From Spirochaetae bacterium HGW-Spirochaetae-1 (GTDB taxonomy: Bacteria; Spirochaetota; UBA4802; UBA5550), in the NCBI GenBank assembly GCA_002839375.1, contig PGXY01000007.1:496001-560000 (forward strand): a stretch of DNA of 64,000 nt, in the 5' to 3' direction. Below the pieces are notes generated by a model, which ran no database searches, was not told the DNA's origin, and was given only the letters and a program-made list of their open reading frames with translations. Shown here piece by piece: positions 5,985-18,628 of the stretch (positions are counted from its first letter, which is position 1; each line of letters starts with the position of its first letter). Position numbers and translations under genes: made by a program.

Positions 5985-6557
5985 CTATGAAAACAGGGGC
6001 TGCGTAGCCATGGCGAAACTCATATCGCCTTCAATCTTCATTGCACCGGACATGAAAAGATTAACGGGATTCGTGTCTTTTCTCATAAGAGCGGCGGTAT
6101 CCTTTGCACTCATCTTGAATATTGAATGAGGCTGCTGTGCACCGTTGAGTACAGCTTCAATTTTGAAGGTGTAGCCGTCTTCATTGGCTATTTCTGCAGT
6201 AAAACTTCCCTTGAGAGAATTAAGGGCATTGTATTTTGATTTGTTGAGATCGCTCTGAAGACCGAAGAGCATGTCAAGATTCTGAGTCTGGATCATTTTG
6301 TTGAGGTCATCCTCGGTTATTTTGATATACATATTTGAGCCGGAAATATCTCCTTTGGTAAACAACAATGATTTTCCGTCCTTCAGCGTGTAAGCGTATT
6401 TTTCGCCGTTTACCTCAACAACCATGGATATTTGTGTACCTGAAAGTTCCTGAGCCGCGCTGTTCTTGGCGAGCAGGTCTTCCACTATGCCCGGCATAAG
6501 TTTTGAAAGCAGATCGGCAACGCTCGTATCCGCTGGTACTGTTGGTAGTGTAGCCAT
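5985..6557 (-). CDS. SCP2 sterol-transfer-domain protein
   Basis: A 190-residue soluble protein with an SCP-2-like lipid-binding fold: AQELSGTQISMVVEVNGEK, then DGKSLLFTKGDISGSNMYIK, then a conserved LNKMIQTQNLDMLFGLQSDL stretch and a final MKIEGDMSFA. SCP2 domains bind acyl-CoAs, sterols or fatty acids and often accompany beta-oxidation genes. It is first in the leftward operon. ATG 6555-6557 follows GAGGAGA; an upstream in-frame start would place the operator inside the gene. The two palindromic operators at 6584-6623 lie 26-66 bp upstream, so the TetR regulator very probably controls it. Ligand not determinable. Confidence 0.85.
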   Translation of the reverse strand: MATLPTVPADTSVADLLSKLMPGIVEDLLAKNSAAQELSGTQISMVVEVNGEKYAYTLKDGKSLLFTKGDISGSNMYIKITEDDLNKMIQTQNLDMLFGLQSDLNKSKYNALNSLKGSFTAEIANEDGYTFKIEAVLNGAQQPHSIFKMSAKDTAALMRKDTNPVNLFMSGAMKIEGDMSFAMATQPLFS

Positions 6558-6583
6558 AATTCGTCTCCTCTGAATTTGATAAT

Positions 6584-6597
6584 ACTGACATGTCAGT
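6584..6597. promoter_or_regulatory. TetR operator copy 1 (ACTGACATGTCAGT)
   Basis: Perfect 14-bp palindrome identical to 6607-6620 and 7483-7496. It lies 23 bp from copy 2 centre to centre, about two helical turns, as expected for paired dimers of a TetR regulator. It precedes the SCP2 gene. Confidence 0.85.
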
Positions 6598-6603
6598 TTC
6601 AGT

Positions 6604-6623
6604 AATACTGACATGTCAGTATT
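6604..6623. promoter_or_regulatory. TetR operator copy 2 (extended 20-bp palindrome)
   Basis: AATACTGACATGTCAGTATT is a perfect 20-bp palindrome containing the shared 14-bp core. On the minus strand a TTGACT (6637-6642) stands upstream, so the operator would cover the minus-10 region of the leftward operon and block transcription. Confidence 0.85.
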
Positions 6624-6750
6624 TTTTTCAAAGAAAAGTCAACAAAAAAATAATTTGACCATATTAATTTTTTTGATATTTCCGGGGATTCAGAATTTGC
6701 ATATTACAAATATTCAAATTAGCATTGACATATATAAAATTTCTATGAAA

Positions 6751-6779
6751 TTGACTTTTATAACTAATTATAATATTAT
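6751..6779 (+). promoter_or_regulatory. Promoter of the TetR gene
   Basis: TTGACT at 6751-6756, a 17-nt spacer, then TATTAT at 6774-6779, near-consensus sigma70 boxes. It lies about 60 bp before the regulator start and about 130 bp from the nearest operator, so strong autoregulation is not obvious. The rest of 6624-6840 is AT-rich without other signals. Confidence 0.6.
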
Positions 6780-6840
6780 ACAAAACGTCCTATCCTATTT
6801 ATTAAATATATAACAATCAACCAGAGGAATATCGGGGAAT

Positions 6841-7455
6841 ATGGAACGATCAAGTATAACACGGGCGAAAATACTGGACTGCGCCAAAAGGCTCTATTCA
6901 CAATCGGGGTATCACGACACACAAATTTCCGATATAATACAGGACGTGAAGATCGGACGGGGAACCGTATATCAGTACTTCAATAACAAGGAACATATTT
7001 TCATTTCACTCCTGGAGCTTTTTTATGAAGAATGGGAAAAAGTAAGCTCGATTGATATCTCCCTGGAGGAACTTCGCAGTATGACTGCCCGGGATTATCT
7101 CCGAATCCGCCTGGGTCAGACCTTCAATTATTTCGACTCCGATCATGACAGGGCCAACATAATATTGAGGACCAGCCTTGGACTGGGCGGTCCCTTTGAA
7201 ACAAAAGTATCACGCCTCGAAAAAAAAATTACGGTCAATATCACCAACGATCTGAAACTGGGCATCCGTAACGGCCACATACACGAAAACATCGACCTGG
7301 AGTTCGTCTCCAACTTCATTGCCGGCGCCATTTTCCGAACATCATTTCACTATTTCGTCAAAAACAGGAGCCCAAAAAAGGCAAAGGAGATGGAACAGAT
7401 AACGGAAAAGGCCTTCAACATGGTGGCCCCCGCCATATTTATAAAAAGTAATTGA
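6841..7455 (+). CDS. TetR/AcrR-family regulator of fatty-acid degradation
   Basis: A 204-residue one-component regulator. The N-terminal helix-turn-helix is classic: ITRAKILDCAKRLYSQSGY, then TQISDIIQDVKIGRGTVYQY, then FNNKEHIF. The rest is a helical ligand-binding domain, most likely for acyl-CoA by analogy with the FadR (Bacillus) and PsrA families. It sits between two operons covering every beta-oxidation step, and identical palindromes precede both. The inference is that it represses them and is released by a long-chain acyl-CoA. The ligand is inferred, not shown. Start supported by AGAGG upstream of the ATG. Confidence 0.9.
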   Translation: MERSSITRAKILDCAKRLYSQSGYHDTQISDIIQDVKIGRGTVYQYFNNKEHIFISLLELFYEEWEKVSSIDISLEELRSMTARDYLRIRLGQTFNYFDSDHDRANIILRTSLGLGGPFETKVSRLEKKITVNITNDLKLGIRNGHIHENIDLEFVSNFIAGAIFRTSFHYFVKNRSPKKAKEMEQITEKAFNMVAPAIFIKSN

Positions 7456-7482
7456 CAAATTTATTTTAAGCTATATTTCGGT

Positions 7483-7496
7483 ACTGACATGTCAGT
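7483..7496. promoter_or_regulatory. TetR operator copy 3 (ACTGACATGTCAGT)
   Basis: Identical 14-bp palindrome 37 bp before the start of the rightward beta-oxidation operon. A possible minus-35 TTGACA lies at 7453-7458, but I see no well-spaced minus-10, so the promoter itself is uncertain. Confidence 0.85.
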
Positions 7497-7532
7497 TTCT
7501 ATCATTTCTTTCCATCTCACCGGAGGTTTTTT

Positions 7533-8639
7533 ATGTCGGAAAATATTATAAGCTTCGACCTGTCTGAAGAACAGGTCATGATGAAGGAAACAATAAGCCA
7601 GCTGGTCAAGAACAACATACTGGATAATGCCCACAATATGGATGAAAACAAGGATTTGCCATCGGAATTTCTCCAGAAATTCTGGGGCCTGGGCATACCG
7701 GCATCGAACATTCCCGAGGCATACGGCGGATTCGGCATGGACTCATCACCATCCATGAACGCCATTGTCCTGGAAGAGCTGGCATGCGGCGACATGTCCT
7801 TTGCCATCGCGGCAACCCTTCCCCTCTTATTCGCCCTGACTGTATCGGAAATGGGAACGGAGGATCAGAAAAGTAAATATCTCCCTTCGTTTTGTTCAGA
7901 AAAATATTTCCCTGCCACAGCGGCAGTCAATGAAATGCGTTTCGGTTTCGATGCCTCTCGACCCGCCACAACAGCGGTGAAAAAAAATGGTTCTTATATC
8001 ATAAACGGCGGAAAATGTTTTGTACCGCTGGCGGATAGTGCTGAACTCATGCTCGTTGCCGCTTCCTGTGACAATAAAGCTGATCTCTTCATTGTCGAAA
8101 AAGACGCGCCGGGAGTAGCCGTCCAGGAACGGGAAAAAAACCTGGGACTTTATGCATTGGCCACCAATGAAGTTACATTCAAGGACTGCGAAATCCCCGC
8201 AGAAAACAGGCTCGGAGGCGATCAGGGATGCAACTTCAATCTCTTCCTGCAGAAATCACGGATCGCACTCTCGGCCATAGGCACGGGAATATCCCGGGCA
8301 TCTTATGAGTATGCGAAAAGCTACGCAAGGGAACGCAAGCAATTCGGGGAGCCCATAGCCAGCAGGCAGAGCATCGCTTTTATGATAGCCGAGATGGCGT
8401 ATGAAGTGGATGCCATGCGGCTTCTTACATGGAAAGCCGCTTCCGCCCTGGAAAACGGAAAAGACGCGCAGCGGGAATCCTATCTCGCCAAACTCTACGC
8501 CGGCGACATGACGATGAAAATTACCGACTACGGCGTCCAGATCCTGGGCGGGCACGGCTATGTCCGGGACCATCCCGTTGAACGCTATTACCGGAACGGC
8601 CGGGGGATAGCGATACTGGAAGGGATGGCCCTCGTTTAA
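7533..8639 (+). CDS. Acyl-CoA dehydrogenase, divergent type
   Basis: A 368-residue FAD-dependent acyl-CoA dehydrogenase. N-terminal helices, then IPEAYGGFGMDS, then the C-terminal domain with RERKQFGEPIASRQSIAFMI and QILGGHGYVRDHPVERYYRN. The usual flavin/substrate loop TEPGAGSD is replaced by NEMRFGFD. The protein ends at ILEGMALV directly after the catalytic-type glutamate, about 15 residues short of the usual C-terminus. The start follows CCGGAGG. A second, canonical dehydrogenase follows 23 bp downstream, so the two may have different substrates or form a hetero-oligomer. First gene of the TetR-controlled rightward operon. Confidence 0.9.
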   Translation: MSENIISFDLSEEQVMMKETISQLVKNNILDNAHNMDENKDLPSEFLQKFWGLGIPASNIPEAYGGFGMDSSPSMNAIVLEELACGDMSFAIAATLPLLFALTVSEMGTEDQKSKYLPSFCSEKYFPATAAVNEMRFGFDASRPATTAVKKNGSYIINGGKCFVPLADSAELMLVAASCDNKADLFIVEKDAPGVAVQEREKNLGLYALATNEVTFKDCEIPAENRLGGDQGCNFNLFLQKSRIALSAIGTGISRASYEYAKSYARERKQFGEPIASRQSIAFMIAEMAYEVDAMRLLTWKAASALENGKDAQRESYLAKLYAGDMTMKITDYGVQILGGHGYVRDHPVERYYRNGRGIAILEGMALV

Positions 8640-8662
8640 ATTATTCTTTCAGGAGAAAAACC

Positions 8663-9862
8663 ATGATTAATCTGGAAACACCCGACTATATCAATAACAT
8701 GCGCAGCAGCATGAACAATCTCGCAAAGGGAGTCCTTCGGCCCATCGCGAGAAAATATGATGAGAGCGAACACGCCTATCCCACGGAACTGGAAATGTTC
8801 CGCAACATCAAGGTGATGGGGCGTCCGAAAAAGAAGAAGGACGGAGAGCAGGCAAGCCCCGACAAGGGCAATGGCAAACCCAAGCGGGGCATGAACCTGG
8901 GAACCGTGGTAACTATCGAAGAAATGTGCTGGGGTGACGCAGGACTCCTTTTGTCCCTCCCCAACTCCGGCCTGGGCAACGCGGCCATAGCCGCCGTGGC
9001 CACGGACGAACAGCTTGAAAAATTCGGCGACAAATGGGCAGCCATGGCCATAACCGAACCCGGATCGGGATCCGATTCCGGCTCTATCACAACAACGGCA
9101 AAACTGGAAGGCGATGAATGGGTCCTCAACGGTGAAAAAATATTCGTCACCTGTGCAGACCGCTGCGATGTCGTGGTGGTATGGGCCACGGTGGACAAAA
9201 GTGCCGGAAAATCCGCCATTAAATCTTTCATAGTCGAGAAGGATCGCCCCGGATTCAAACTGGAACACCTGGAACACAAACTGGGAATCCGGTCCTCCGA
9301 CACAGGCACCTTTGTCCTTGACAACTGCAGAATACCGAAAGGCAACATTCTGGGCGATCCCGAGGTAAAAACAAGCACCGACGGATTCAAGGGCGTCATG
9401 AAGACCTTCGACAACACCAGGCCCATGGTGGCCTCCATGGCCGTCGGCATAGCCCGCGCCGCCCTGGACTTTACCAGGGAAAAACTTGAAGAAAACGGAT
9501 TCGTACTCGATTACAGTAAAAACCTCAATAACGTGAGCAGCATGGAAAAGGAATTCTACACCATGGAAGCGAACCTGGAAGCGATGCGGATGCTGACCTG
9601 GCGCGCGGCATGGATGGCGGACAATGAAAAATTCAACAACGTTGAAGCATCCATGGCCAAGGCCAAATCGGGAAGGTATGGCACGCTCATAACACAGAAG
9701 TGCTGTGAACTCCTGGGCCCCCTGGGCTTCTCTCAGCAGTACCTTGCCGAGAAGTGGATGAGGGACAGCAAGATAATGGACATCTTCGAAGGAACAGGTC
9801 AGATTCAGCATCTTATTATTGCACGCAACGTTCTGGAAATGTCCAGCAGCGAGCTAAAATAA
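8663..9862 (+). CDS. Acyl-CoA dehydrogenase, canonical type
   Basis: A 399-residue acyl-CoA dehydrogenase that forms trans-2-enoyl-CoA and passes electrons to ETF. The flavin loop AITEPGSGSDSGSITT is canonical. The catalytic glutamate region is MDIFEGTGQIQHLIIARNVL, complete to the C-terminus. The N-terminal domain carries a lysine-rich insertion (GRPKKKKDGEQ and following residues, about 25 long) before MNLGTVVTIEEMCWGDAG. Its start has AGGAG upstream. It lies directly behind the divergent dehydrogenase in the operon. No etfAB genes occur in the window, so the electron acceptor is encoded elsewhere. Confidence 0.93.
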   Translation: MINLETPDYINNMRSSMNNLAKGVLRPIARKYDESEHAYPTELEMFRNIKVMGRPKKKKDGEQASPDKGNGKPKRGMNLGTVVTIEEMCWGDAGLLLSLPNSGLGNAAIAAVATDEQLEKFGDKWAAMAITEPGSGSDSGSITTTAKLEGDEWVLNGEKIFVTCADRCDVVVVWATVDKSAGKSAIKSFIVEKDRPGFKLEHLEHKLGIRSSDTGTFVLDNCRIPKGNILGDPEVKTSTDGFKGVMKTFDNTRPMVASMAVGIARAALDFTREKLEENGFVLDYSKNLNNVSSMEKEFYTMEANLEAMRMLTWRAAWMADNEKFNNVEASMAKAKSGRYGTLITQKCCELLGPLGFSQQYLAEKWMRDSKIMDIFEGTGQIQHLIIARNVLEMSSSELK

Positions 9863-9922
9863 ATAGAGGCCTCTGCGGCCGCATTATCAGGGCAAAACTT
9901 TTAGAACTATAAGGAGTATACT

Positions 9923-11089
9923 ATGGACGTCAGTAACGTAAAAAAAATTGCCATTATCGGATCAGGGGCCATGGGTCACGGCATAGCACAGGTGTGCGCC
10001 ATGGCCGGTTACGAAGTGGTGATGAAAGACATCAAGCAGGAATTTCTTGACAATGCTGTAGTCAAGGTCAAAGAAAGTCTGCAGTTTCTCGTATCCAAAG
10101 GGAAAATGGCACAGGATCAGTTTGATACGATCACTACAAAGCTCTTGAAAACATCACTGGATACTAAAGAAGCAATCACCGGTGCCCAGATCATACTTGA
10201 AGCGGTTCCGGAGATTATGGACCTGAAGAAAAAGGTCTTTAAGGAGCTGTCAGATCTCGCTCCGGAAGATGTTATTCTGGTAACCAACACATCCACCATG
10301 AGCATCTCCGATATCGGGTCCGTTGTAAAAAACCAGGCCCGTTTCGCCGGTATGCATTTCTTCAATCCGGTAAACCGCATGAAACTGGTTGAACTGATCT
10401 ATGGCGACAAAACCGATCATGCCACCATTGATCTCCTTTTTGCCGTCTCGCAGAAAATAGACAAGATACCCATCAAGGTACTGAAAGACCGTCCGGGATT
10501 CATCGTGAACAGGATAAGCGCCCCCAACCAGGCTCTCCTGAGCGCCATACTCGATGAAGGTAAAGTGAAGCCGGAACAGGTTGACGGAAAAATGAAAAAA
10601 ATGGGAGTCAAAATGGCGCCCTTTGAAACGGCCGACTTTGTCGGTATAGATGTTTTCTGTCACACCCTGGAATATTATGAAAAAACCCTTTCACCGCAAT
10701 ACAAACCGGGCAAATTTCTCACCGGTCTTATAAAAGACAACAAGCTGGGGATGAAATCGGGCCAGGGAATTTATCAGTGGTCAAACGGAAAGGCCGCAAT
10801 TCCTGAAGGCGAAGATACAGATGAAATAACGCCCATCCACTTCATGGCGATCCAGGTCAATGAAGCTGTGAAGGTCTTCAAGGAAGGACTAGCCGAATCG
10901 GTTCAGGCCATCGATGACGGTGTGAAATTCGGCATGAATGCCTTTGCCGGCCCCTTTGCACTGGCTTCGGGCATGCCGCCCCAACAGCTTGCCGACGCCC
11001 TTAATTATCTTGTGGATCGCTTCAAGCTTGATTTATTTAAGCCGGAACCCGAGATAATCGACGGCTCTTTTAAAACTTTAGGCCGATAA
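9923..11089 (+). CDS. 3-hydroxyacyl-CoA dehydrogenase
   Basis: A 388-residue NAD-dependent enzyme oxidising 3-hydroxyacyl-CoA to 3-ketoacyl-CoA. The Rossmann motif is IAIIGSGAMGHGIAQVCAMAG. The catalytic histidine lies in GMHFFNPVNRMKLVELI, followed by DRPGFIVNRI. At about 280 residues the family minimum is complete; a second 3HCDH C-terminal domain follows (FMAIQVNEAVKVFKEGLAES to about 370), as in the dehydrogenase half of FadB proteins. Thus it looks like a FadB-type dehydrogenase separated from its hydratase, which is the next gene. Ribosome site AAGGAG. Confidence 0.93.
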   Translation: MDVSNVKKIAIIGSGAMGHGIAQVCAMAGYEVVMKDIKQEFLDNAVVKVKESLQFLVSKGKMAQDQFDTITTKLLKTSLDTKEAITGAQIILEAVPEIMDLKKKVFKELSDLAPEDVILVTNTSTMSISDIGSVVKNQARFAGMHFFNPVNRMKLVELIYGDKTDHATIDLLFAVSQKIDKIPIKVLKDRPGFIVNRISAPNQALLSAILDEGKVKPEQVDGKMKKMGVKMAPFETADFVGIDVFCHTLEYYEKTLSPQYKPGKFLTGLIKDNKLGMKSGQGIYQWSNGKAAIPEGEDTDEITPIHFMAIQVNEAVKVFKEGLAESVQAIDDGVKFGMNAFAGPFALASGMPPQQLADALNYLVDRFKLDLFKPEPEIIDGSFKTLGR

Positions 11090-11100
11090 GGAGGGACGAT

Positions 11101-11871
11101 ATGTCCGACGCAATACTTTTCGAACAAAAGGACAACATCGGAATTATAACGATAAACAAGCCCAAGGCGAACCAGTTGAGCCATGAGGTCTTTGAGGGAA
11201 TACGCCGACGCCTGGACGGCCTTGAACTGGACAAGAGTGTCCGCGTAGTAATCATAACCGGGACAGGTGACAAGAGTTTCTGTGCCGGTGCGGACCTCTC
11301 CAGCGGTTTCGGCGATTATAACGCCGTGGATTTTCTGAAGCGGGGACAGGACGTATGGAATAAGGTAGAAGATTTTTCAAAACCGATAATTGCCGCAATG
11401 AACGGACATGCCCTGGGCGGCGGTCTTGAGCTGGCAATGGCCTGTCACTTCAGATTTATGAAAAAAGGCGCGCGCGCGGGTCTTACCGAGACCAACCTGG
11501 GCATCATGCCCGGGTACGGCGGTACGCTCAGACTGCCGCGCCTTGTGGGACGGCCAAAGGCTATAGAGATGATGCTTCTTGGAAAACAAATAGAAGCGGA
11601 AGAGGCCCTGGCTATCGGGCTCGTCAACCGGATCTGTGAAGAGGGAAAACTCATGGAAGAATGCATTGAGTTTGCCACGGAACTGGCGGGGCGTCCTCCC
11701 CTGTCGGTTAAGGCTATTCTTAAAACGCTTTCTTTGAGCGCCTCGGTGTCACCTGAGCAGCAACTCAAGATTGAACGCGAGGAACTGGCACGTCTCTTTA
11801 CAACCAAAGACATGCAGGAGGGAATGACCTCCTTTTTCCAAAAACGAAAACCCGAATTCAAGGGAGAATAA
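11101..11871 (+). CDS. Enoyl-CoA hydratase
   Basis: A 256-residue crotonase-fold enzyme adding water to trans-2-enoyl-CoA. The oxyanion-hole region is NGHALGGGLELAMACHFRF, and the second catalytic glutamate lies in LTETNLGIMPGYGGTLRL. Both catalytic glutamates are present, supporting hydratase rather than isomerase activity. It is separated from the dehydrogenase gene by 11 bp that contain AAGGAGGG, so the two are co-translated. Last gene of the rightward beta-oxidation operon. Confidence 0.93.
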   Translation: MSDAILFEQKDNIGIITINKPKANQLSHEVFEGIRRRLDGLELDKSVRVVIITGTGDKSFCAGADLSSGFGDYNAVDFLKRGQDVWNKVEDFSKPIIAAMNGHALGGGLELAMACHFRFMKKGARAGLTETNLGIMPGYGGTLRLPRLVGRPKAIEMMLLGKQIEAEEALAIGLVNRICEEGKLMEECIEFATELAGRPPLSVKAILKTLSLSASVSPEQQLKIEREELARLFTTKDMQEGMTSFFQKRKPEFKGE

Positions 11872-11883
11872 CAGGCTGATAAC

Positions 11884-12007
11884 AGCCCGCAGGTCAGAAA
11901 ATTTTTTAGCTGTATCATATTCTATGAATGATTTTGCGACCCTGATAATGTGCATAATCACTTTTCCCCTTCTACATGATGCACTATGGACCTGCGGGCT
12001 TTTTTTA
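11884..12007 (+). terminator. Long-range stem with T tract after the beta-oxidation operon
   Basis: AGCCCGCAGGTC at 11884-11895 is perfectly complementary to GACCTGCGGGCT at 11989-12000, which is followed by seven T. The right end is a plausible terminator half, but the loop is 93 nt, much longer than usual. The loop may fold on its own or form a regulated or processed RNA. The stretch holds no gene. Confidence 0.55.
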
Positions 12008-12025
12008 ATGAATCCAGGAGTTACT

Positions 12026-12397
12026 ATGAAATTTTCAATACTTCTGTATCTCTTTTATCTGCTTTTAAAAACCTTCTCATTTTTTTCCCCGTCATTTAAA
12101 AAACGGTTGCGCGAAAAAAATATTACGCTCCTCATAACAACGGAAAATCGTTCACGGAAGCGCTATTATATTATAGAAAATGGTCTGGTGCGTTCCGGGA
12201 AAAAAATTGTTTCTCATCCTGACATGTCACTCATCTGGAAGGACCACGAGACGGGATATGCATACATGCGATGCAGAAGCATAATGGCCTTCATGATGGC
12301 CATGAGAGAAAACAGCCTGAGACTCGAGGGGAAACCCCTCCCTTCACTCTGGTTCATGGGAATCATGGGTGAAATGGCTTCTCATTTAAAAAAATAA
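12026..12397 (+). CDS. Small membrane-anchored SCP2-like protein
   Basis: A 123-residue protein with one N-terminal hydrophobic helix (KFSILLYLFYLLLKTFSFF), then a small domain. The pattern ITTENRSRKRYYIIENGLV, then DMSLIWKDHETGYAYM, then SLRLEGKPLPSLWFMGIM resembles the C-terminal half of SCP2-like lipid-transfer domains, where a loaded-lipid loop is followed by a WFM helix. The assignment is by pattern only. ATG 12026 follows AGGAG; an upstream in-frame ATG at 11924 lies inside the terminator structure and is rejected. It is followed 18 bp later by the AraC-type regulator. Confidence 0.55.
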   Translation: MKFSILLYLFYLLLKTFSFFSPSFKKRLREKNITLLITTENRSRKRYYIIENGLVRSGKKIVSHPDMSLIWKDHETGYAYMRCRSIMAFMMAMRENSLRLEGKPLPSLWFMGIMGEMASHLKK

Positions 12398-12415: not shown

Positions 12416-13519
12416 ATGTTTCTTTCAGTCGCCAACAACATCATATTGTTTGCCGCTTCACTGTCCCTCCTGACATCCGTGGGCCAGCTGTTTATGCGGG
12501 AAAGAAGAGAAGAGAATGAAAACCTTTTTTTCCTCTTCTTCGTTCTGGGCGTCATTCTCATTCAATCCCACTCCATTATTACAGGGATAATGTACGAATA
12601 TCCCGCGCTCTTCTTTCTGAATATGACCTTCATGTCGCTACTGGGCCCCATCCTTTTCAGGGCCTATTACTACGTGATTTTTCCCGTGACATCGTTTCGA
12701 TTCAGGCACAGCCTGATCTTTTTCCCTTCCCTGGCAGTCCTTGCCGTCGATCTCCACTATCTTTTCCTGCCGGGAATGGAAAAGACCGCCATACTCCGGC
12801 ATGTCCTCCAGGGATCGGCAACAGTCGCCTCGCGGGTATACCAATTCACTTACCTGCTATCATTGCTGGAAGCCGCTCTGCTTCATTTATATCTGCTCAC
12901 GGTTTTAATCAGGGAGATGCGGGATAACCGGTACGGACGTATCCTCCTCATCGACATCACCTATACGGTGCTCTCTCTTGCTACATTTTCCCTTGCCTGC
13001 ACCGGCATACTTCTGGGCTCCGTGCCCCTCATCCGTACGGGAAGTCTCATGGCCGCAACCCTCCTCATCGGCGCGTACCTGGTGGGATTCCGCTTTCCCC
13101 AGTTTCTCCACCTCTTTTTCGTGAGCGCCATGACGGGCAAACGAAACCGGTCGCTGACTTCAGGCATCGAGATCGACCGGGTTCTGGAACAGCTCATGAA
13201 AACCATGGAGGAGGAAAAGCTTTACCGCGAAGAGGATTTATCCCTGCAATACCTGGCCGACGAACTGTCCATAACACCCCACCAGCTTTCCCATATCATC
13301 AACGAAAGTTTCAATATGAATTTCAACAACTTCATAAACCGCTTTCGTGTCGATGAAGTGCGTCACCACCTGCTGGCAACGCCAAGACGTTCCATTCTTT
13401 CTATTGCCCATGAAGTGGGCTTTAACTCCAAGTCGGCTTTTTATGCCGCCTTCACCCATTTTACCGGAAAAACCCCCACACAATTCCGCAAAGAAAAACA
13501 GTCCGGACGGTTAAATTAA
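12416..13519 (+). CDS. AraC-family regulator with 7TM-type membrane domain
   Basis: A 367-residue protein. About residues 5-240 form a polytopic membrane domain with six or seven hydrophobic segments (for example NIILFAASLSLLTSVGQLF and SLMAATLLIGAYLVGF). Residues about 270-365 form an AraC DNA-binding domain: LQYLADELSITPHQLSHIIN as first HTH, ILSIAHEVGFNSKSAFYAAF as second, ending FTGKTPTQFRKE. This membrane-tethered AraC layout is common in spirochaetes such as Leptospira. It stands directly before the aldehyde oxidoreductase cluster and is the natural candidate regulator for it, perhaps sensing a membrane-soluble compound; this is inference. Confidence 0.88.
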   Translation: MFLSVANNIILFAASLSLLTSVGQLFMRERREENENLFFLFFVLGVILIQSHSIITGIMYEYPALFFLNMTFMSLLGPILFRAYYYVIFPVTSFRFRHSLIFFPSLAVLAVDLHYLFLPGMEKTAILRHVLQGSATVASRVYQFTYLLSLLEAALLHLYLLTVLIREMRDNRYGRILLIDITYTVLSLATFSLACTGILLGSVPLIRTGSLMAATLLIGAYLVGFRFPQFLHLFFVSAMTGKRNRSLTSGIEIDRVLEQLMKTMEEEKLYREEDLSLQYLADELSITPHQLSHIINESFNMNFNNFINRFRVDEVRHHLLATPRRSILSIAHEVGFNSKSAFYAAFTHFTGKTPTQFRKEKQSGRLN

Positions 13520-13658: not shown

Positions 13659-15533
13659 ATGCAGGAGATTACAGGCACCAGCAATAAGATTCTTGAAGTT
13701 GATCTCACCATGCAGACATTCACCGTTGCCGATATCAGCGATAAAGACCGCCGCATGTACCTGGGCGGCAAGGGCATAGGCCTCAAACTGCTCTATGACC
13801 GGCTTCAGCCCGGCATTGATCCCCTGGGCGAGGATAATATATTCATACTCGCCATGGGCGTATTCATGGGCACGGGAGTGCCCTGCTCCGGCCGGTTCGA
13901 GGCCATTACCAAGTCACCCCTCACGGGTACCATGGTGACCGCGTCATGCGGAGGCCCCTTCGGTATGGCGCTCAAGACATCGGGATGGGACGCCATGGTG
14001 ATCCGGGGGAAAGCCAGGAACCCCGTTTATCTTGCCGTGGATTCAAAGGGTGTCCGGTTTAAACCAGCCGGGAGCATCTGGGGGAAAAACACTGAAAAGG
14101 CCGAAGAGCACCTGCTGAAAGAAGGATCGGGGGCCATGGTCATAGGCCAGGCCGGCGAAAATCTGGTGCGCTATGCCAACATCCGTTCCGGTCACCGTTT
14201 CCTGGGAAGAGGCGGCATGGGCGCGGTCCTGGGGTCCAAGAACCTCAAGGGCATCGTGGCCGCGGGAAAGGAATTTAAAATGGCCCCGGTCAATGTAAAA
14301 AAGTTCGAGAAATTAAACAGGCAGTTTCTGAAATACATCAACCAGAACGCCATAACGGCCGGTTCCTTTCGTTCCTACGGAACTAATGCCAACCTTAACC
14401 TGTCCAACGCGGCGGGGATATTACCGGTGAGAAATTTCACCGGCGGCACACACGGCTCGGCTTACAAGATTTCCGGCGAGGCCATGGCCGAAAATTTTAA
14501 CACAAAGTTCGATACCTGCAAGCCCTGTTCCATTCTCTGCGGCCACAAGGGAACCATCGAAGGAGAAGAACGCCACATTCCCGAATACGAAACCATCACA
14601 CTCCTGGGCTCAAACCTGGAAATTTTCGATCCCGTACTCATCTCACGTTGGAACGAACTATGCTCGGAGTACGGCATGGATACCATATCCACGGGCGGCA
14701 CCCTGGCATGGGCCATGGAGGCCACGGAAAAAGGCCTCATTAAAACCGGCCTGAAATTCGGAAATCCCGACGGCGTATCGGAGATGATAAAAGATATCGC
14801 ACTGCGAAGAGGTATCGGCAGGGACCTGGCCCTGGGTTCGGCCCTGGCCTCAAAAAAATACGGGGGTGAGGATTTTGCCATGCATGTCAAGGGCATGGAA
14901 CTGCCGGGCTATGACCCCAGGGGATGTTTCGGTCAGGGGCTGTCCTATGCCACGGCAAATCGCGGCGGGTGCCATTTATCCTCATACGTTCTGTCCCTGG
15001 AAGCCTTCCTGGGAATGGCCGATCCCCATGCCCTGCGATGGAAACCCTTCATGGTTAAATTCCTCGAGAACACCTTCGCCGCCGTGAACTCGCTCCATAT
15101 TTGCCAGTTTACGGCATTCGCGGTATTCCTTGAACCGCCTCTCATCAAGGCAACACCCACTTTTCTTATAAAAATACTGAACCAGAATATTTCCCTGCTG
15201 GCCCTGAACCTCATGGATGTAAGCCTCTGGCCCGAACTCTGGCATGCTATTCTGGGCAAGCGATACATACCCTACCTGAGTATGCTGAAGTTCAGCAAAG
15301 CCGGTGAACGGGTCCACGTTCTCGAGCGTTACATGAATACCCGCGAGGGAATATCCAGAAAGGATGACACCCTCCCCCGCCGTTTGCTTACCGAGGGAAG
15401 GAAATGCGATGCCGGAGAGAAGACCGTGCCGCTTGAGCCCATGCTGAAAAAATATTACCGTCTGAGGGGATATGATGCCAACGGCATTCCGAAAAAACGT
15501 ACCCTCCGCCGTCTCGGCATTACCGTGCAGTAA
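13659..15533 (+). CDS. Aldehyde:ferredoxin oxidoreductase, tungstopterin type
   Basis: A 624-residue AOR-family enzyme that oxidises aldehydes to acids with ferredoxin, or reduces acids in reverse. The N-terminal domain shows YLGGKGIGLKLLYDRL and SGRFEAITKSPLTGT. The [4Fe-4S] ligands are C287, C290 and C294 in CKPCSILCGHKG plus C482 in NSLHICQF, all retained. A cofactor-binding EYGMDTISTGG motif lies near 338-347. Length matches the family (about 605-630). The start follows AGGAG. Two iron-ADH-type genes follow, suggesting an acid-aldehyde-alcohol route. The tungsten cofactor is inferred from the family. Confidence 0.92.
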   Translation: MQEITGTSNKILEVDLTMQTFTVADISDKDRRMYLGGKGIGLKLLYDRLQPGIDPLGEDNIFILAMGVFMGTGVPCSGRFEAITKSPLTGTMVTASCGGPFGMALKTSGWDAMVIRGKARNPVYLAVDSKGVRFKPAGSIWGKNTEKAEEHLLKEGSGAMVIGQAGENLVRYANIRSGHRFLGRGGMGAVLGSKNLKGIVAAGKEFKMAPVNVKKFEKLNRQFLKYINQNAITAGSFRSYGTNANLNLSNAAGILPVRNFTGGTHGSAYKISGEAMAENFNTKFDTCKPCSILCGHKGTIEGEERHIPEYETITLLGSNLEIFDPVLISRWNELCSEYGMDTISTGGTLAWAMEATEKGLIKTGLKFGNPDGVSEMIKDIALRRGIGRDLALGSALASKKYGGEDFAMHVKGMELPGYDPRGCFGQGLSYATANRGGCHLSSYVLSLEAFLGMADPHALRWKPFMVKFLENTFAAVNSLHICQFTAFAVFLEPPLIKATPTFLIKILNQNISLLALNLMDVSLWPELWHAILGKRYIPYLSMLKFSKAGERVHVLERYMNTREGISRKDDTLPRRLLTEGRKCDAGEKTVPLEPMLKKYYRLRGYDANGIPKKRTLRRLGITVQ

Positions 15534-15603: not shown

Positions 15604-16764
15604 ATGAAAATGAAATTATTCGATTACAGATTTTTCAGTCATTCCAAGATAGTATCGGGCAGTTGCGCATTGGAGACCATTCCGGCTGAACTGGAAAGCT
15701 ATGATGCCCGCAAGCCCCTGGTGATAACGGGAAAAGACATCACACGTCGCGGCCTGGAGAAAAAACTGATCAGGGCCTTTTATGATTCGGGTTTTCCTCT
15801 TGGCGGGATATATGATGAAGTGCGTGATTATGCCGGTATAGGCCTGGCACAAGAAGCAGCCCATCTCTTCAGGGAAAGAGGCTGTGACTCTCTCATTTCC
15901 CTCGGAAGCGGACCCATAACAGATACTGCCAGGGCAGTCAACATCCTTGTATCCGATGCCTCCGGTGATCCTTTCAGGTTTTTCGACGGAACGCCCCTTG
16001 CCATAAAAATGAAGCCCATGGTTCTCATTCCCACCTGCTGTTCCGGCGGGCTTGAGGCCGGAAATATCATCACTCTGGACAACCGGCAGTTTCAGTCCGA
16101 TTCACTCTATCCCGATGTCGTTATCCTGGACAAGCGGATGACTCCCGCCTGTTCATCGCGATGCGCCGCAGAGTCGGCCGTTTTGGCCATGGACAATGCC
16201 ATCTCAGCCCTCATGGACAGTAAAAGCAATCCCATGAACGATGCCTTTATACATGCATCACTTCAGTTCATATCACAAAACCTGGCAAAGTCAATGCGGC
16301 GGCCCAAAAATAAAAAGATCAGTCTTGCCATGGCCAATGCCGGGGTTATGGCCGGAATTGCCGCATCAAATGCAGGGCCCGGCCTGGTGCGGCTCCTATC
16401 CGAAGAACTATCCCGCTCAACAGGCCTTTCCCGGGGCGTGTTCACGGCGATGTTGCTTCCGTCAGCACTTGTTCACCGGGAGCAACAGCCTGACCCCCTG
16501 AACGGTGATCTGCTGCTTGCGCTGAAAGGCATGGATGTCTTTTCTGGGACGCCGGAAAGGAAACGGAGCAGCAGAGGTATCGAATCCGCCCTTGATCTTA
16601 TCGGCATGACAAAAAAAATAATTCCTGAAACCCTGTCCGCATTGAACATTCCTTACTACAAGCTTGAAGATGCCGCAGAAAAAGCGGCAGCCAGGAGCCA
16701 TAAAACCTTCTCCAGCGAGGACTGTCTTGCCGTTATGGGTCTTAGCCGGCAGGTAAGAAAATAG
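15604..16764 (+). CDS. Iron-ADH-family paralogue lacking metal ligands (probable pseudo-enzyme)
   Basis: A 386-residue protein that aligns end to end with the intact iron-containing alcohol dehydrogenase at 17381-18628. Key residues have changed. The nucleotide loop GGGS has become LGSGP at 100-104, and GTGSE has become CSGGLE. Of the four metal ligands D-H-H-H, only the aspartate (D197) remains; the histidines align with S201, R263 and R277. It therefore cannot bind iron in the usual way. The frame is full length with a good AGGAG site, so it is maintained, not decaying. It may be a structural or regulatory partner of the active enzyme. It sits 70 bp after the aldehyde oxidoreductase. Confidence 0.85.
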   Translation: MKMKLFDYRFFSHSKIVSGSCALETIPAELESYDARKPLVITGKDITRRGLEKKLIRAFYDSGFPLGGIYDEVRDYAGIGLAQEAAHLFRERGCDSLISLGSGPITDTARAVNILVSDASGDPFRFFDGTPLAIKMKPMVLIPTCCSGGLEAGNIITLDNRQFQSDSLYPDVVILDKRMTPACSSRCAAESAVLAMDNAISALMDSKSNPMNDAFIHASLQFISQNLAKSMRRPKNKKISLAMANAGVMAGIAASNAGPGLVRLLSEELSRSTGLSRGVFTAMLLPSALVHREQQPDPLNGDLLLALKGMDVFSGTPERKRSSRGIESALDLIGMTKKIIPETLSALNIPYYKLEDAAEKAAARSHKTFSSEDCLAVMGLSRQVRK

Positions 16765-16791: not shown

Positions 16792-17364
16792 ATGAATATA
16801 AACAAATACCCGGAAATACAACCGAAACAAAAAATTATAAAAAAGATTTATATCTTCATCATGCTTTTTATAGTGGGCCGCGCCATTGAGGCAGCGGCAA
16901 AAGTGGACAAGACCGTGAAGGATATCTTCAACGGCCTTCCCGACGATTTCATCTTTTATCTCGGGGTCAATCCCGGCGGCCCCTACATGGTTGTGGGCAA
17001 GGAAAAGGACGGAACGGTAAGATATCTTGGGTGGAAACTTTACGGTAAAAAAATCAGTCTCGCTATGAGGATCAAGAACGTCGAGTCCGCCATCAAGGTC
17101 TTCACATTTCAGGAATCCACGGCCCTGGCTTACAACTATGACCGTTTTATCGTTGAAGGAGACCTGCCGCGGGCCCTGGCCATTGTCAGGGTACTTGACA
17201 TCGTTGAGGTCTATCTCCTGCCAAAAATAATCGCCCGGCTTGCCGTTAAACGATATCCTCACTGGTCCGAAATGTCCCCGGTGATAAAGTATACGGGCAG
17301 GATCAGAATTTATGTCAAATCATTCACCACGGGCCTGGTCAGGGTCATACTTCAGAATTTATAA
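16792..17364 (+). CDS. Membrane-anchored SCP2-like protein
   Basis: A 190-residue protein with an N-terminal hydrophobic segment (IYIFIMLFIVGRAIEAAA) and a small domain. The central stretch KKISLAMRIKNVESAIKVFT, then STALAYNYDRFIVEGDLPRA, resembles the SCP2-type loaded-ligand loop followed by an EGDL helix. A basic C-terminal tail (RIYVKSFTTGLVRVILQNL) may be amphipathic. The family is assigned only by pattern. The start follows AAGGAG, and the stop is 16 bp before the active iron-ADH. With the protein at 12026-12397 it would be the second membrane lipid-binding-like protein in the cluster, possibly presenting long-chain substrates. Confidence 0.55.
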   Translation: MNINKYPEIQPKQKIIKKIYIFIMLFIVGRAIEAAAKVDKTVKDIFNGLPDDFIFYLGVNPGGPYMVVGKEKDGTVRYLGWKLYGKKISLAMRIKNVESAIKVFTFQESTALAYNYDRFIVEGDLPRALAIVRVLDIVEVYLLPKIIARLAVKRYPHWSEMSPVIKYTGRIRIYVKSFTTGLVRVILQNL

Positions 17365-17380
17365 AAGGGGGAGAAATATT

Positions 17381-18628
17381 ATGATAATGCCGGATTTTTA
17401 CGATTTCTGCTGCCGTGTCAGAACAGTTTCAGGGAACAAGGCCCTGGAAGAAATACCGGGCCTCCTGGCAGGAATGAATTCCCGCCGCCCTTTGATCATC
17501 ACCGATAAGGGAGTGGAAGCAGTCGGGCTCATCAATGTGTTAAAAAAAGCCCTGGGGAAAAAGCTGTCTATCGGCGCCGTCTTCGATAAAGTACCCGTTG
17601 ATTCCGACTATAAAATTGTCGATGAGGCTGCCGCACTTTACCGTTCAAAAAAATGCGATTCCATAATAGCCGTGGGAGGCGGTTCGGTCATCGATACCGC
17701 AAAAGGTGTGAACATAGTGGCGTCTCTGGGAGGCAAGAGCCTGCTTCAATACCAGGGCGCGGGAACCGTGCGACAGAAACTCAATCCCATGGCCATAATT
17801 CCCACCACGGCCGGTACCGGTTCGGAAATGACCCTGGTTGCCGTTATTGCCGACACTGACCGGCATATTAAAATGCTTTTCGTGTCCTATTTTCTGCTTC
17901 CGGACCTGGCCATACTGGACCCGCGCATGACCGCAACCCTCCCTGATTTTCTCACGGCCGCAACGGCCATGGATGCCATGACCCATGCCTGCGAGGCCTA
18001 TTACTGTATGGAAAAGAACCCCATGAGCGACTCCTTTGCTCTCGGGGCTATTGAATTGATAAGCAGAAATCTTCTCAGGGTAATGAAAAACCCGGGAGAC
18101 ATGGATGGAAGACTGGCCCTGGCCAGCGCTTCAACCATGGCCGGCGGCGCCTTTTCAAACTCTATGGTAGGGCTCGTACACAACCTGGGGCATACAATCG
18201 GCGCCCTGTGTCATGTTCCCCACGGTAACTGTATGAGCATACTTCTTCCCTATGGTTTCGAATATAACCTGCACCGCAGGGCCGCAATCATCGGCGAGCT
18301 GCTCTTTCCCCTTGCAGGCCCGGAGGTATATGCTAAAACCCCCAAAAAGGACCGACCGGAAAAGGTCATTGAACACATCCGGCAGATGAACCAGGATCTC
18401 CACGATGTAACGGGTGGACGGCATCCGCGCTTTTTAAAAGAAATAAAAAACCGCCAGGGTGATCCCATGGTTCCCCGTTCCATGCTCCCTGACATTGCCG
18501 CGGCAATGATGATGGACGGTGCAAGGATGCACAATCCCGAGGAGATACTGCCCGATGATGCGCTCATGGTCCTGGAGCACGCCTGGGAGGGAACTCCCCT
18601 GGATAGGAAAAAAGTTAAAAAAGGATAA
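17381..18628 (+). CDS. Iron-containing alcohol dehydrogenase
   Basis: A 415-residue group III (iron-type) alcohol dehydrogenase interconverting alcohols and aldehydes with NAD(P). Nucleotide loop GGGSVIDTAKGVN (99-111), then TTAGTGSEMT. Metal ligands D198 and H202 in AMDAMTHACEAY, H267 in VHNLGH and H281 in VPHGNC are all present. ATG 17381 was chosen for its GGGGGAG ribosome site; an upstream in-frame start lies inside the previous gene. It is the active counterpart of the degenerate paralogue at 15604-16764 and ends the tight part of the cluster. Confidence 0.93.
   Translation: MIMPDFYDFCCRVRTVSGNKALEEIPGLLAGMNSRRPLIITDKGVEAVGLINVLKKALGKKLSIGAVFDKVPVDSDYKIVDEAAALYRSKKCDSIIAVGGGSVIDTAKGVNIVASLGGKSLLQYQGAGTVRQKLNPMAIIPTTAGTGSEMTLVAVIADTDRHIKMLFVSYFLLPDLAILDPRMTATLPDFLTAATAMDAMTHACEAYYCMEKNPMSDSFALGAIELISRNLLRVMKNPGDMDGRLALASASTMAGGAFSNSMVGLVHNLGHTIGALCHVPHGNCMSILLPYGFEYNLHRRAAIIGELLFPLAGPEVYAKTPKKDRPEKVIEHIRQMNQDLHDVTGGRHPRFLKEIKNRQGDPMVPRSMLPDIAAAMMMDGARMHNPEEILPDDALMVLEHAWEGTPLDRKKVKKG

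Follow-up and report, generated by a model that had tools for sequence, protein, structure and literature searches.

A conserved paralogue of iron-containing alcohol dehydrogenases without metal ligands, probably a partner subunit of the intact enzyme encoded beside it

Pseudoenzyme subunits of the prozyme type are known from trypanosomatids, where the heteromer has been proven experimentally. The protein described here, referred to as pseudo-ADH, has its closest described relatives among the Group III or iron-containing alcohol dehydrogenases (Fe-ADHs; FucO, Bacillus methanolicus MDH; PF00465/PF25137). Fold, full length and domain order are common to both; the pseudo-ADH differs in that the four metal ligands, His267 and the residues of the NAD signature are gone. 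In passages of PMC5125639, H267 of FucO is described as substrate-interacting, and the maleylacetate reductases are treated as metal-free relatives of Fe-ADHs which have lost the Asp ligand, as has the pseudo-ADH. The maleylacetate reductases retain activity and the catalytic His (H243 of GraC, equivalent to H267 of FucO), whereas this His is lost in the pseudo-ADH. A search of the open-access literature found no dead or non-catalytic Fe-ADH paralogue or pseudo-subunit, and no report in which aldehyde:ferredoxin oxidoreductase (AOR) and Fe-ADH are linked with Syntrophus or with a sterol carrier protein. The pseudo-ADH is probably a partner subunit and not a broken gene.

The gene, its neighbours and its active site

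The window, i.e. the whole stretch of 64,000 nucleotides that was analysed, contains a cassette of four genes in the order AOR, pseudo-ADH, S190 and intact Fe-ADH, separated by gaps of 70, 27 and 16 nt. The features of the window and of other loci discussed below are listed in Table 1.

Table 1. Coordinates of features in the window and in related loci
Feature	Location	Strand	Remarks
S157, 157 aa	window, 11924-12397		Outside all Pfam families; flanked by an enoyl-CoA hydratase-like gene and the AraC gene
AraC-type regulator	window, 12416..13519	+	5' of the cassette; homologue 5' of AOR in some relatives
AOR, 624 aa	window, 13659..15533	+	First cassette gene; Pfam AFOR_C 393 bits, AFOR_N 235 bits
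Pseudo-ADH	window, 15604..16764	+	Predicted Fe-ADH fold; all four metal ligands and the catalytic His (E267) gone
S190, 190 aa	window, 16792..17364	+	Predicted SCP2 fold (lipid-carrier-like), hydrophobic N-terminal helix; constant companion of pseudo-ADH
Intact Fe-ADH	window, 17381..18628	+	D198, H202, H267, H281 plus H271; cassette-specific insertion GGRHPRFLKEIKNRQGDPMVP and C-terminal tail
Second cassette of the same genome	L007 (G000:C3), 6216-11592		Acyl-CoA-ligase-like gene, pseudo-ADH, S190, ADH
Fe-ADH with ferredoxin domain	L100, 7422-9155		START-domain protein downstream
S190 and pseudo-ADH	L101, 201-2036		No adjoining ADH; next gene a Cache/SpoIIE protein
Fused pseudo-ADH and Fe-ADH	L109, 733-2820		695-aa frame, after S190
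S190-ADH pair	L127, 905-6149		No pseudo-ADH; alkyl-DHAP-synthase homologue and FGGY kinase adjacent

The reading frame of the pseudo-ADH starts with ATG just downstream of AGGAG and runs for 386 codons with no internal stop or frameshift, in agreement with the original prediction of a good ribosome site and an undamaged frame. The translated protein exceeds the cut-offs of both Pfam domains (Fe-ADH, 80.7 bits against 31.3; ADH_Fe_C, 57 bits against 27). Its AlphaFold model (pLDDT 92.8, pTM 0.91) retains the fold intact and matches Fe-ADH structures over the full length, with TM values of 0.84-0.86 to FucO and B. methanolicus MDH1. By sequence and predicted fold the protein is a member of the Fe-ADH family, and its earlier description as a full-length paralogue was confirmed. 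Annotation by Pfam cut-off would name it an iron-containing alcohol dehydrogenase, and since it scores above the cut-off, enzyme counts in carrier genomes would be off by one for each cassette.

According to family and PDB alignments, the metal-ligand positions are occupied by L194 (Asp), N198 (first His), R263 and R277, and E267 takes the position of the second-sphere His, H267 of FucO. The loss of all three histidines had been recognized correctly in the original prediction; the Asp had been regarded as retained in D197, but its position is that of L194. The register which gave D197 and S201 is three residues off, and the 'AMD' in 'LAMDNAIS' is a coincidence. The changes in the NAD signature had been noted before and were found as GGGS to GSGP and TTAGTGSE to TCCSGGLE. 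Judged from these residues, the window protein has lost both the metal ligands and the NAD signature of a working Fe-ADH, and the glutamate at position 267 sets it apart from enzymes of the maleylacetate reductase type.

The Asp is kept in none of the 62 readable pseudo-ADH rows (64 rows in total) but in all 63 partner ADHs that are readable, a contrast beyond chance. The histidines are kept to differing degrees: the first in 24/62 rows, the second in 37/61 and the third in 1/61. The first position holds H, R, Q, N or E, the second mostly H, and the third P, A, R, Q or others. The R/R/S changes had been expected to recur as a common signature of the homologues; the residues vary, and it is the loss of the Asp that marks the family. 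An equivalent of His267 is present in one of 61 readable rows, the odd L129. The family-wide changes in the alignment are hence the loss of the Asp and, except for this one row, of the His267 equivalent. Among the outgroup Fe-ADHs, 6 of 20 likewise appear without the Asp (distant rows, raw alignment), so that ligand loss alone is not unique to the pseudo-ADH family.

That the pseudo-ADH is a metal-free enzyme, comparable to the maleylacetate reductases after the loss of their Asp ligand, is unlikely. Metal-independent members of the family in which the Asp is replaced are described in passages of PMC5125639, and some pseudo-ADHs of Desulfobacterota (L107, L113) retain GGGS, TTAGTGxE and two ligand histidines; against this reading, the His of the reductases survives only in L129, substitution is free, in the clade of the window, at the Ser of GGGS and at the TTxGTGS residues, and no invariant new His/Asp/Lys cluster was seen at the old metal site of the pseudo-ADHs.

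Distribution, selection and origin

In a protein search of 59 genomes, the window's own and relatives, pseudo-ADHs lacking the Asp were found in 29, with 31 copies in all, two each in G000 and G006. A scan with an S190 alignment, restricted to one genome per species, yielded 65 loci, 62 of them with a pseudo-ADH. The locus sets L037-L069 and L070-L134 overlap, with several contigs identical, and their counts are not additive. The second set was retrieved by S190, so that the presence of S190 beside the pseudo-ADH is there by construction; the fairer test of co-occurrence is the pseudo-ADH-anchored survey of the 59 genomes. In this survey 28 genomes contain both genes, 29 neither, one only S190 and one only the pseudo-ADH, on a contig which stops 73 nt past the gene. 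From the stop of the pseudo-ADH to the next cassette gene the median distance is 18 nt (57 loci; starts chosen by rule).

The loci belong to uncultured Spirochaetota, to Desulfobacterota (Syntrophaceae, Smithellaceae, Desulfobacterales) and to genomes labelled Myxococcota by the tree tool. Perlabentimonas gracilis M08_MB (L110), the sole member of the Bacteroidota, is the one named isolate; it is in culture, and its genes run AOR, pseudo-ADH, S190, ADH. The carriers are anaerobes, for the most part uncultured, and belong to several groups. Two loci of Desulfobacterota (L070, L071) cluster with the window in the trees of both the pseudo-ADH (99% support) and the ADH (97%), which argues that the cassette crossed phyla as a unit. 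These two cassettes are the closest to the Spirochaetota copy of the window, and their AOR lies on the opposite strand. The genome of the window also contains a second, diverged cassette (L007), in which an AMP-binding acyl-CoA-ligase-like gene takes the place of AOR; its pseudo-ADH is 34% identical to the window copy and has Ala at the Asp ligand and Glu at the third His.

Values of dN/dS (Nei-Gojobori) were 0.06-0.42 in the 40 most similar pairs of homologues among those above 62% identity; the nearest homologue of the window gene itself, at about 55% identity, is too distant for an estimate. In most of these pairs the pseudo-ADH value is roughly double the one for the partner ADH, with the reverse in L093/L098, where the ADH row is truncated. 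Relaxed selection with dN/dS near 1, which the original prediction had named as evidence against itself, was not seen. Selected retention, which it had proposed, is supported by these values together with the orthologues in 29 of the 59 genomes and the intact partner ADH. The reading as a pseudogene decaying towards loss is rejected as extremely improbable: evolution at about twice the rate of the partner ADH would suit it, but dN/dS is well below 1 in all 40 pairs, the frames are full-length and intact across phyla, and some positions have become newly invariant. With its catalytic residues lost, dN/dS below 1 and orthologues kept, the pseudo-ADH is very probably a conserved pseudoenzyme under selection.

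Relative to the partner ADH, positional entropy of the pseudo-ADH is 4.0-fold in the GGGS loop, 3.2-fold in each metal helix region and 1.17-fold in residues 5-38 (L149_OUT and L153_OUT were left out of this test). E29, S62 and N245 vary in ADHs but are near-invariant across the pseudo-ADHs. It is chiefly at the NAD and metal sites that constraint has dropped, and other residues have become newly constrained. The conserved N-terminal segment is also found in ADHs that have no pseudo-partner; it is therefore inherited and provides no specific evidence of an interface.

In the tree calculated without long-branch rows, the pseudo-ADHs form one side of a branch with 100% SH-aLRT support, as do the outgroup Fe-ADHs. 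Excluded from this second tree were 13 near-duplicate loci as well as 11 rows on long branches. The first tree contained all 146 rows; there the pseudo-ADHs require two label changes instead of one, and long branches disturb the topology. L044 and L048 (partial) were dropped from A1, and rows shorter than 340 aa as well as L129 from A3. On the basis of the second tree, the pseudo-ADH family has a single origin.

The partner ADH, S190 and other neighbours

The partner Fe-ADH is intact wherever it is readable, which bears out one half of the co-occurrence proposed in the original prediction. The other half, a constant AOR, did not hold: AOR, of two kinds, is present in 47 of the 62 pseudo-ADH loci, and for the 15 loci without it, short contigs account for 5, and the flanks of the other 10 are readable. 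AOR was accordingly rejected as an obligate partner. The triads of L089, L097 and L106 have a Zn-type ADH upstream, an acyl-CoA carboxylase subunit downstream and no AOR. Judging from gene content, the constant partners are the intact Fe-ADH and S190 with its predicted SCP2 fold. Both are tighter partners than AOR, and S190 had not been mentioned in the original prediction. Four S190-ADH pairs have no adjacent pseudo-ADH, which is thus not required for every such ADH.

The cassette ADHs are set apart by an insertion (GGRHPRFLKEIKNRQGDPMVP in the window) and a C-terminal tail (WEGTPLDRKKVKKG). Of 59 cassette ADHs, 58 carry both and the remaining one is broken at an assembly gap; both are absent from the ADHs of the S190 loci without pseudo-ADH (0/4) and from other Fe-ADHs (0/20); the insertion is also absent from the pseudo-ADHs (0/60). 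The ADH of L133, whose contig starts inside S190, has both. Insertion and tail represent one event on one branch, so their match with the pseudo-ADH amounts to one coincidence of timing.

In L109 a pseudo-ADH fragment is fused in frame to an intact Fe-ADH. The fragment comprises about 280 aa, with matching residues to about position 258, and is 37% identical to the pseudo-ADH of L121. This is the only fusion in the 41 genomes searched around L109. Further fusions were suspected from open frames of about 800 aa; true stops (TGA, TAG, TAA) separate pseudo-ADH and ADH in all eight junctions read, and therefore only L109 is counted. Over 52 loci, L129 being left out, pseudo-ADH distances correlate with ADH distances at r 0.85 (partial 0.60 given S190) and less strongly with S190 distances (partial 0.34 given ADH); part of these correlations reflects common ancestry.

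A scaffold or substrate channel serving mainly S190 or AOR, instead of a subunit of the ADH, is an improbable alternative. As far as the contigs permit, the loci read have the pseudo-ADH next to S190, and L101 carries these two genes with no ADH next to them (the best match to the ADH in the rest of its genome has 43% identity), as this alternative would have it; on the other side stand the ten loci with readable flanks and no AOR, the closer correlation with ADH than with S190, and the sole fusion, which joins the pseudo-ADH to the ADH. In a separate observation, the cassette Fe-ADH of L100 carries a C-terminally fused multi-[4Fe-4S] ferredoxin domain, an arrangement that fits electron exchange with ferredoxin.

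A role as sensor or regulator of the operon, similar to that suggested by the NCBIfam label ErcA (NF041833), is likewise given a low probability. ErcA resembles Fe-ADHs and, judged by its NCBIfam name only, has been proposed to act non-catalytically; it is the best NCBIfam match of the pseudo-ADH, and an AraC-type regulator is encoded upstream in the window. The score of 106 bits, however, is far under the cut-off of 550, and the intact ADH also has ErcA as its best match, so that the label is uninformative; the gene context differs as well. The pseudo-ADH sits with short spacing within a structural cassette, its known fusion partner is an ADH and not a regulator, and the AraC gene is missing from most cassettes read.

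S190 of the window has no Pfam match by itself. Of 52 relatives, three match SCP2 weakly (best E 8.8e-4) and 49 have no match to E 0.1. Its AlphaFold model matches SCP2/UbiJ structures with a best E of 3.9e-4 and TM values, by target, of about 0.45-0.60 (best SCP2 rows). With its predicted SCP2-like core S190 resembles the SCP2 and UbiJ lipid-binding proteins, from which it differs by an extra N-terminal helix and a C-terminal part. The S190 family is tied to Fe-ADH across phyla. S157 of the window has no detectable relationship to S190.

Lipid-related neighbours include the acyl-CoA ligase of L007 and the START-domain protein after L100; genes of beta-oxidation type lie upstream in the window, recognized by eye only. 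The S190-ADH pair of L127 is found beside a homologue of alkyl-DHAP synthase (PDB 2uuu, E 8e-69), a neighbourhood that hints at ether-lipid metabolism. Strong homologues of alkyl-DHAP synthase (E < 1e-100) were detected in 27 of 29 genomes with and 9 of 30 without a pseudo-ADH, a contrast that follows kinship. For the other S190 loci the search covered 36 of the 65, and 18 of these 36 genomes contained such a homologue. In L158 this gene was considered as broken, an idea dropped when the apparent in-frame stop did not hold up. The link of the cassette to ether lipids is a lead and not a claim. The neighbours, the S190 model and the partial association with alkyl-DHAP synthase point towards hydrophobic substrates; lipid-like ones are plausible, with about even odds.

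Proposed role and comparison with prozymes

Among the roles offered in the original prediction (subunit, carrier, regulator, new chemistry), that of a subunit is best supported; chemistry without iron is less likely, given that the loss extends to the NAD loops and H267. The pseudo-ADH is regarded, with moderate confidence, as a non-catalytic, prozyme-like subunit in a presumed heteromer with the adjacent Fe-ADH. A single duplication, in the lineage of the neighbouring Fe-ADH, would have given rise to it; iron binding and catalysis would have been lost, and the protein retained as a subunit. Through the preserved Fe-ADH fold, pseudo-ADH and ADH may form a mixed oligomer, with the insertion and C-terminal tail of the cassette ADHs as candidate contacts. 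S190 could pass on a hydrophobic substrate, either aldehyde or alcohol, and in cassettes that include AOR this enzyme would convert acid into aldehyde or the reverse. The physical heteromer, the effect on activity or stability of the ADH and the lipid-like substrate are the putative parts of this model.

More tentatively, and with some doubt, a lipid carrier of predicted SCP2 fold, pseudo-ADH and Fe-ADH may constitute a three-protein unit, undescribed before, in which the Fe-ADH is a hetero-oligomer with an obligate dead paralogue; transfer would have carried the unit into several phyla, mostly of uncultured anaerobes. Partly together with AOR, such a unit might convert long-chain aldehydes to alcohols and back for membrane lipids, e.g. 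to supply fatty alcohol for ether lipids. If the partner model is true, the Fe-ADH superfamily includes a pseudo-subunit. The conserved cassette with its lipid-carrier-like protein offers an entry point to long-chain acid/aldehyde/alcohol conversion in anaerobes. The trypanosomatid prozymes resemble the pseudo-ADH in that a dead, conserved paralogue stands beside an active one, probably in a regulatory or structural role; they differ in their unrelated fold, and the heteromer is proven there and inferred here.
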